The notes under the pieces: model-generated
Told to the model about the DNA's origin: nothing
Databases searched by the model: none
Seen by the model: the letters and a program-made list of their open reading frames with translations, nothing else
IMG/VR virus record: IMGVR_UViG_3300042691_026149
Span: 1 to 22,619 of that record
Origin: a virus
Reading direction: 5' to 3' (one strand)
Length of the DNA stretch: 22,619 nt
In this document: positions 1-1,238 of the stretch, piece by piece
Numbering within the stretch: the first letter of the stretch is position 1
How the letters are laid out: every line of letters begins with the position of its first letter
Program-made: the position numbers and the translations under genes

Positions 1-313
1 ACTTGCTGCGGCACACCACCATGGGCAGGTTCAGGCTGCGGACCTTTTTGATCAGGCCTGCGTGGTCCAGTGGGTACTGGTCGATGTCAACGCAGCCCCA
101 GATGCAGGAGTTGTCTGCGCGGATGGGGATGATGCCCAAACTCGGCTCCACCCCTTGTAGATGCTTGGTCCAAAGGTCATCGGTTGGCGGCTTGCGCACA
201 ACGACGGCCTTGCCCGCCTGCTTACCGTCTCCACGAGACGATTCAATTTTGTATGTTCCGTAGGCAATATCCAGGCCGGAAAAGATCGCCTTGAACCGGG
301 TGATGTCGGTCAT
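1..313 (-). CDS. AEP-type DNA primase, N-terminal part (runs off left edge)
   Basis: The frame is open from the ATG at 313 to the window edge, giving 104 residues with no stop. A purine-rich stretch (AGAAAGAAG) lies just upstream of the start. The translation has the pattern of archaeo-eukaryotic primase (AEP/PrimPol-like) proteins found in phages and TOTE-type elements: GIIPI at residues 60-64, then the metal-binding pair D76-I-D78 within GCVDIDQY, then LPMVVCRSK at 97-104, which in this family leads into a Gly-His motif that lies beyond the edge. The D-x-D pair would bind the divalent metals used for primer or strand synthesis. Neighbours fit: an SNF2 helicase and a RecB-like nuclease lie about 2 kb away, so this is probably the replication primase. 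The C-terminal half, including any helicase or primase-C domain, cannot be seen. Family assignment is from motif memory. Confidence 0.72.
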   Translation of the reverse strand, partial: MTDITRFKAIFSGLDIAYGTYKIESSRGDGKQAGKAVVVRKPPTDDLWTKHLQGVEPSLGIIPIRADNSCIWGCVDIDQYPLDHAGLIKKVRSLNLPMVVCRSK

Positions 314-332
314 TTCTTCTTTCTACGATAGG

Positions 333-460
333 TGGGGGACACGGAGCGGTTTACTAGCCGCCCCTCGCCACGGTAATTGCAAGTCCCGTGAACAGGAGGG
401 TTGGCCAAGGTCGAACACATGCTGAATCCGGAGAATCCGACGAGCCGCATGTGTCCCCCA
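333..460 (-). ncRNA. Branched inverted-repeat element, candidate structured RNA of unknown family
   Basis: The gap between the primase and the next gene folds almost entirely into perfect helices. The closing stem is 334-342 with 451-459 (9 bp, GGGGGACAC/GTGTCCCCC). Inside are 346-349 with 358-361 (4 bp), 362-366 with 396-400 (5 bp) stacked outside 369-373 with 386-390 (5 bp), and 415-422 with 447-454 (8 bp) enclosing 429-432 with 436-439 (4 bp, GAA loop). All are Watson-Crick, so either strand could fold. The minus strand is chosen because the flanking genes are read that way. The three-armed cloverleaf is about 126 nt. It lacks a T-arm with a UUC loop and an anticodon arm, so it is not a normal tRNA, and I saw no hammerhead core. 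It could be a regulatory 5' leader of the primase, a processed small RNA, or a cruciform at a replication origin. Confidence 0.42.
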
Positions 461-464
461 AAAC

Positions 465-1238
465 TCAGAAGGGTGCGGGACCGTTGCCTGCTGCGCCTGT
501 CTCACCTTCGTGTTTAACTTTCACATCACCTGCGCCGACCGACTGTGCAAACGCCTTGGCAGCGTTGTAGATGTCGGCGGACTCAACGGGACCGGTGCGC
601 TCGACTTCCCAACCAAACCACTTGCCCTTGTCGTTGGACTCGGCCACGGTGGACAGGCGGTACATCTGGCTGTACATCGGAGGCGTGAACAGGCCGTTCT
701 TACCCGAGAGCTTAACCGACTGCATCATGCTGTTCCACTTGCGGCTTTTCTTGAGCTGCGTGGACTTCATGGTGATGAGGGCTGGCTCGGGAAAGCCCGA
801 TTCGCTGATCATCATCACGTAGTAGTTGGCCGTGTTTTCGATGTAGTTGCCGTTGTCGAGGTAGTCCTTGTTGTCGCCCGGCTCCTTGTGGGTCTGGGAC
901 AGGATGTCGCTCGTGGCCGGGTAGATGTGCACGGGTGCACCGCTGCCGCTGCCGCGTGGTGCCCACTCGATGTACTGGCGCACGTAGGCGCAGGGTACAA
1001 CGGCCAGGCCCCGTTTGCCGTCAAACAGTTCACCGGTGACGGTGTTCAAGACCATGCCTGGCAAGGCACCGTCCACTTCACCGACTTCGGGGCTGGTGCT
1101 GGTGAGCAAGCGCAAGAAGGGCAGTGCGTAGTCCTCTTGCGTCATGCCGTCAAAGCCGGCACCTGCGTCCTTCTCAATGTCACCCATGATTGCCAATGCG
1201 GTGTTGGCGTTCTTTTCCGCGATTTCAGTTTTAGCCAT
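465..1238 (-). CDS. Conserved phage protein, possible single-strand DNA-binding protein
   Basis: This 257-residue protein starts at the ATG at 1238 behind AAGGAAAA. It resembles a widespread phage family that sits beside AEP primases and helicases. Recognisable parts are an N-terminal ALPFLRLL segment around residue 40, an NTVTGE motif near 65, a YIEWAPR motif near 90, a GNYIENTA stretch near 128, and a basic KSTQLKKSRKWNSMM block near 160 that could contact nucleic acid. The tail is Gly/Ala-rich and ends in a terminal Phe (GPAPF), reminiscent of the aromatic C-terminal tips of bacterial SSB and T7 gp2.5, although it is not strongly acidic here. Its place in the replication block supports a DNA-binding role. 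That role is inference; what I recognise is only the family pattern. Confidence 0.6.
   Translation of the reverse strand: MAKTEIAEKNANTALAIMGDIEKDAGAGFDGMTQEDYALPFLRLLTSTSPEVGEVDGALPGMVLNTVTGELFDGKRGLAVVPCAYVRQYIEWAPRGSGSGAPVHIYPATSDILSQTHKEPGDNKDYLDNGNYIENTANYYVMMISESGFPEPALITMKSTQLKKSRKWNSMMQSVKLSGKNGLFTPPMYSQMYRLSTVAESNDKGKWFGWEVERTGPVESADIYNAAKAFAQSVGAGDVKVKHEGETGAAGNGPAPF

Follow-up and report, generated by a model that had tools for sequence, protein, structure and literature searches.

Several structured RNAs resemble parts of the locus studied here. STAXI (RF01728; PMC2864571) is a candidate structured element located near genes for ssDNA-binding proteins and other DNA-manipulation genes, and it was argued to be an RNA rather than a DNA element. 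The L17 downstream element (RF01708; PMC2864571) is a structured RNA proposed to act on the upstream gene from its 3' UTR. Intergenic sRNAs of ~100 nt are known from phage PAK_P3, and their discoverers noted a short stretch reminiscent of the tRNA T-loop (PMC4933390). In related cultured phages, G/C-rich hairpins linked to gp34 are found at the same position as the element described below, sometimes followed by a T-run.

The locus shares with STAXI a neighborhood of ssDNA-binding and DNA-manipulation genes, the neighbor in our case being a gene for a probable ssDNA-binding protein. STAXI, however, contains a pseudoknot, is present in 2-3 repeats and occurs in Enterobacteriales (PMC2864571), whereas the RNAs reported here are either a branched single-copy element or loop-E-framed elements with a variable insert, all from metagenomic phages. 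The L17 downstream element accompanies a ribosomal protein gene in Lactobacillales and Listeria (PMC2864571), while no Rfam match is obtained here. The PAK_P3 sRNAs are expressed late in infection, and one is flanked by tRNA genes (PMC4933390); they show no demonstrated sequence relation to our elements. Compared to the gp34-linked hairpins, the elaborated elements in the same slot fold into larger structures, and 54 of 56 lack TTTT after the stem.

The window, i.e. the entire 22,619-base virus record analyzed, holds one copy of a 126-nt element (334..459, minus strand), termed W-type in the following. It is a folded, evolutionarily conserved RNA that two replication genes flank in a lake phage genome, as seen from its fold z-score, its covariation and its G-U and A-C counts. 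The element occupies most of a 151-nt intergenic gap (314..464) that extends from the stop of a gp34-like gene to the start of a primase gene, both on the minus strand. The minus strand is also the sense strand of the element, for which the earlier note had given no orientation. The upstream gene (465..1238, minus strand) belongs to the Pam3_Gp34 family (PF23977, E 5.2e-66). The downstream gene (2..313, minus strand) is the start of an AEP-type primase cut by the window end (phrog_21866; AEP-TOTE just under the cut-off), and its ribosome-binding site begins ~10 nt past the closing stem P1.

The gp34-like protein probably binds ssDNA. Its structure was predicted with low confidence (pLDDT 63.5), and Foldseek returned no match at E < 0.001 (best E 0.041). 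With VIA, the best match was an integrase-RDF fusion (Z 5.9), followed mostly by ssDNA-binding OB-fold proteins at Z 2-4.3. These OB-type matches are weak and suggestive only, and given the Foldseek result and the best VIA Z of 5.9 the assignment is kept at the level of probable. None of the family databases names the protein an SSB, and comparing its sequence with those of solved structures was uninformative.

On the minus strand, the element is closed by the 9-bp stem P1, formed by GGGGGACAC (451..459) and GTGTCCCCC (334..342); eight of its nine pairs are invariant and one shows a double change, in L033. The 9-bp closing stem of the earlier note is confirmed, its span of 333-460 adding one flanking base on each side. 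P2 pairs ATGCGG (445..450) with 344..349, two of the six pairs being unformed in the window itself. P3 (435..441 with 410..416) carries double changes at two pairs, and in P4 (403..408 with 354..359) the pair 61/109 occurs as UA, GC, CG and UG. P6 (386..391 with 368..373) includes a column pair, 78/95, with five standard pair types among eight sequences, and its loop GACTTGCAATTA (374..385) is almost invariant in alignment A4. P1, P2, P3, P4 and P6 are conserved across the W set. P5 and P6 together make up the arm for which outer and inner stems of 5 bp each had been described; P5 (CCCTC, 396..400, with GAGGG, 362..366) is present in the window and L002 only. Against dinucleotide shuffles, the window element reaches z-scores of -2.65 (plus) and -2.82 (minus), with 2 of 200 shuffles equally good, and the eight W sequences range from -2.5 to -4.5. 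The fold thus exceeds chance, in agreement with the initial impression of an element too ordered to be accidental, while folding energy taken alone is modest evidence.

Rfam 15 yielded no family match in the window, and when E values of up to 10 were admitted for the gap, along the lines proposed by the earlier note, the top score was 11.6 bits where the family threshold is 59.5; STAXI, which is contained in Rfam, matched neither window nor gap. The view that the element is no tRNA or tmRNA was borne out, as ARAGORN and Rfam had no such match in the window. One 119-nt element and one framed element (both classes are introduced below) likewise reached no Rfam family. Since neither the W-type nor the framed kind matches an Rfam family, both are at present missed by genome annotation. 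When the gap was compared with cultured phages at the DNA level, only the primase start and chance matches came up, and two pattern scans of viral contigs for further W-type elements recovered the known gene context and chance matches only. No description of W-type or framed elements was found in the open-access literature. On the minus strand, no terminator-like site is present in 200-2300; P1 is directly followed by ACCTATCG on its 3' side, not by the U-tract that follows the G/C-rich stem of an intrinsic terminator.

Relatives of both flanking genes were taken from IMG/VR and the gap was excised from each. The W set comprises eight distinct sequences (the window and seven others) in one gene context throughout, and a four-helix structure was tested for covariation on alignment A4 of these sequences. 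Paired cells amount to 96.0%, compared to 40-50% when the 3' partners are slid, a comparison that favors the drawn structure since it was drawn with the same sequences in view. Double-sided changes occur in 16 cells, compared to 5.1 in shuffled data (0 of 500 as high), and are spread over seven pairs; taking the pair and cell counts together, 0-1 of 500 shuffles are as high. Counted on the minus strand, 34 G-U pairs face 8 A-C mismatches. As the shuffle control leaves relatedness in, the evidence leans chiefly on the slide control and on the strand asymmetry. The earlier note had held that stems without covariation in relatives would speak against an RNA; in the eight W sequences the stems do covary, and its suggestion of a new phage structured RNA is sustained by this covariation, by the excess of G-U over A-C and by the lack of an Rfam match. 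The 34 G-U pairs against 8 A-C mismatches are as expected for an RNA with the same orientation as the genes and indicate an RNA structure and not a DNA cruciform, and the equal constraint on both strands that a cruciform would entail is not seen in these counts.

The W-type RNA is predicted to fold in two mutually exclusive ways. The segment GACACATGC (447..455, minus strand) is able to pair either with the 3' strand of P1/P2 or with GCATGTGTT (414..422, minus strand), a near-copy of that 3' strand; the latter pairing is predicted in the growing transcript in 8 of 8 sequences. When the 5' half is folded alone, each of the eight W sequences is predicted to form the alternative hairpin, with energies of -17.8 to -24.0 kcal/mol. 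In minimum-energy folds of the growing transcript, it is finally abandoned at nucleotide 122-124 of 126, again in 8 of 8. The alternative hairpin is therefore predicted to be displaced once the last P1 nucleotides have been transcribed, and a delayed closing of the structure is a plausible consequence of this strand exchange. In L033, a change in the first strand is matched on both alternative partners (columns 14, 49 and 125), a triple covariation, and a neighboring alternative pair is broken. Since the remaining alternative pairs are nearly invariant, the two-state reading rests on the prediction and this one event.

The gp34-primase slot is filled interchangeably by simple hairpins, loop-E-framed RNAs, a ~119-nt type and the W-type element. 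Relatives of the window carry in the gap either simple G/C hairpins of 46-57 nt, elements of the GGGGCCGAAAG..GAGTAGGCCCC kind (53-104 nt), or members of the ~119-nt class. The last class covaries as well, with 93.3% of cells paired, 53 double-changed cells compared to 16.6 after shuffling (0 of 500 as high), and 117 G-U pairs against no A-C mismatch. Regardless of the RNA class in the slot, the flanking genes are 81-92% identical to the window at the DNA level, which argues that the RNA was exchanged and not gradually altered. Close relatives, with flanking genes 81-90% identical, thus swap RNA wholesale in a genome slot that is usually ignored, and covariation in these structured RNAs is strong enough to build on. 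In distant gp34 phages (Pbunavirus, Carpasinavirus, DSL-LC04, 023Pt_psg01), a plain hairpin is seen by eye in the slot, in some cases with a short T-run behind it that resembles an intrinsic terminator. With TTTT after the stem in 2 of 56 elaborated elements, U-tracts are rare, and intrinsic termination is unlikely as a general function.

The framed elements are defined by a GAAA/GAGTA internal loop, a putative loop-E (bulged-G) motif, between a G/C-rich P1 and P2. The W-type element has no GAAA opposite GAGTA, and a scan of the window for the frame was empty: it shares with framed elements the slot, in which many other freshwater phages carry them, but not the frame. Position statistics of the framed family therefore apply to it by analogy only. 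A search of IMG/VR constrained solely by a 5' core, GAAAGCGGATG with either purine allowed at three positions, and a 3' core, GC[GA]AGTA, detected at least 182 distinct framed elements in at least 182 viral contigs and many unrelated contexts. Among the matches listed, pairs 1-4 of the frame P1, left unfixed by the search, are standard in 176-178 of 182 elements, pairs 1-3 of the frame P3 (ACGCA type) are standard in 98-99 of 99, and G-C, C-G, U-A and U-G pairs all occur in the two stems, while pairing at the outer positions 5-6 beyond P1 is inconsistent. As some loci were fetched via G/C-rich P1 patterns, the GGNN-fetched set provides the cleanest test of P1; there, pair 2 is standard in 117 and pair 3 in 116 of 118 elements among the matches listed.

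The insert carried by the frame is hypervariable: clustering by shared 12-mers splits the 118 elements of one subtype into 97 groups, and T-loop hairpins are found in 11 elements compared to 0.64 expected by shuffling, both among the matches listed. Similar inserts are located beside unrelated upstream families, e.g. in L253/L321 and L337/L374/L431. Two inserts (L218:1100-1172 and L294:625-697) are predicted as tRNA-Thr(tgt) by ARAGORN, with the frame itself forming the acceptor stem; the Rfam tRNA threshold was reached by the L218 insert only (30 bits). The inserts of L356, L412, L378 and L423 also look tRNA-like by eye.

The framed elements are positioned tightly behind the upstream gene. 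Among the matches listed, the distance from the stop codon to the element has a median of 7 nt (IQR 5-9), and for the distance from the element to the next start codon the median is 19 nt, with an IQR of 13-22 and values reaching 58. By eye, some framed elements are followed by an A-run and a terminator-like hairpin instead of a gene. Stop-codon read-through was considered and rejected, as only 57 of 131 framed elements can be read across in frame without meeting a stop. The immediate upstream proteins (n=119, among the matches listed) include DUF669 (10), Enc34 ssDNA-binding (7), Pam3_Gp34 (6), SSB (6) and RecT (2), and further ssDNA-binding families upstream are phrog_7364/18154. The ssDNA-binding or annealing families (DUF669, Enc34, SSB, RecT, phrog_7364/18154) are of unrelated descent. 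Among the matches listed, an automated search for an SSB-type acidic tip was positive on the upstream side for 48 of 145 elements and on the downstream side for 3 of 145; for elements first fetched by a later scan, the listed matches gave 20 of 84 upstream and 2 downstream. The proteins encoded downstream vary widely, and in the matches listed their 25 most frequent families include none that binds ssDNA.

A small Cys-rich gene intervenes upstream of 18 elements, and many of the examples read have an acidic-tip gene one to three genes upstream. The small, secreted-looking Cys-rich protein (MKK..CTTCCYGGNCTTNCF) is encoded just upstream in L225, L260, L301, L341, L361, L391, L401, L408, L415 and others, in many cases behind an ssDNA-binding-type gene. 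The upstream families phrog_27714 and phrog_9528/2300 are large and lack an annotation as ssDNA-binding, so that roughly one third of the elements can be firmly linked to an ssDNA-binding gene; for some others we infer one from acidic tails and neighborhood. An acidic tip upstream need not mean an SSB in every case, as NCBIfam assigns a nearby upstream protein in L333 to the NGO0469 family of replication initiation proteins. The framed family thus ties one RNA core to many unrelated genes, among which those for ssDNA-binding proteins are prominent.

The reading we prefer, at a probability of about 0.45, is that the W-type RNA is a cis-acting, intercistronic 3' UTR element of the upstream gene that caps and protects its message or uncouples the two genes. 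The RNA, which we infer to belong to a gp34-to-primase message, would adopt a compact, G/C-capped fold a few nucleotides past the stop codon. This fold would block decay in the 3'-to-5' direction and/or uncouple the gp34-like gene from the primase gene, so that the probable ssDNA-binding protein may be produced in excess over the primase. Owing to the near-copy of its own closing strand, the half made first would form one hairpin that is later displaced, and the structure would close late, once the final P1 nucleotides exist. A fold just past the stop, a product probably needed in quantity and simple hairpins in relatives fit such protection or uncoupling. In the framed elements, the tight distance to the stop and the variable downstream genes and spacing likewise point to a 3' UTR or intercistronic RNA of the upstream gene and not to a leader of the primase. 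That leader, riboswitch-like or an attenuator with the two-state fold as its switch, had been put forward by the earlier note. It would profit from the two mutually exclusive folds that prediction gives for every one of the eight W sequences, from the triple covariation in L033 and from the nearby primase ribosome-binding site, yet P1 is not followed by a U-tract, the predicted fold does not sequester the ribosome-binding site, and the wider framed set has diverse downstream genes at loose spacing; we regard it as quite improbable. The cruciform origin, also raised there, is consistent with the location among replication genes beside the primase. Such a DNA element is exceedingly improbable, as the changes keep G-U pairs of the sense strand and rarely leave A-C, in the W set as in the 119-nt class, and the wider framed family is tight in orientation and upstream-stop distance.

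A generic stability role leaves the strict frame core, the hypervariable inserts and the preference for ssDNA-binding genes unexplained, and the fixed core with its hypervariable insert leaves room for a trans-acting role. The RNA might be cut from the transcript of the ssDNA-binding protein and serve as a decoy, sponge or anti-defense RNA, with the frame presenting a fast-changing domain. Cluster diversity among the listed inserts, the recurrence of similar inserts beside unrelated upstream families, tRNA-like inserts, T-loop enrichment in the listed matches and a wholesale replacement that resembles fast turnover are in line with this; the tight upstream-stop distance and the simple hairpins in the slot, however, fit a cis role, neither a target nor a processing site was identified, and the W-type element is conserved, not hypervariable, across its eight sequences. 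We consider a trans-acting RNA unlikely. T4 gp32 autoregulates at its own mRNA, and with ssDNA-binding genes as preferred neighbors the upstream protein could similarly bind the W-type RNA and control its own operon. The element is located 3' of the gene, away from its ribosome-binding site, and the same frame with similar inserts is found beside unrelated ssDNA-binding families, which makes a protein-specific site unlikely; autoregulation is accordingly very doubtful. More speculatively, and in our view again unlikely, freshwater phages could share uncatalogued RNA scaffolds behind ssDNA-binding-protein genes that display exchangeable trans-acting domains against the host, with the W-type element as a parallel two-state strand-exchange RNA. 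If so, the fixed core would consist of the loop-E-like GAAA/GAGTA and GGATG/ACGCA, the domains would include tRNA mimics, and an arms race with the host would be implied. Whether a 3' UTR RNA architecture sets the dose of ssDNA-binding proteins, or variable RNAs are aimed at the host, is a testable question.

Some further observations concern individual contigs. Tandem pairs of framed elements are present in L160, L215, L326, L362 and L625. A subclass with GCTTCRCATA in the insert (L561, L565, L572, L583, L608, L617) is located, in the five cases with the upstream gene in view, 14-21 nt past the stop of a gene whose product ends in LRVYQIKN. On the contig of a relative, an Rfam int-alpA RNA was found (L016:4544-4609, 52.9 bits). 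A scan of bacterial and archaeal genomes gave one clearly genuine framed element, L482, among the matches listed, the others being chance-like. L482 is a Verrucomicrobiota MAG contig, possibly mis-binned viral, and its insert is the same as in L217. An unannotated framed element is also found before a ribbon-helix-helix gene in a deposited metagenomic phage genome from Manatee Spring (L649, MW202879).
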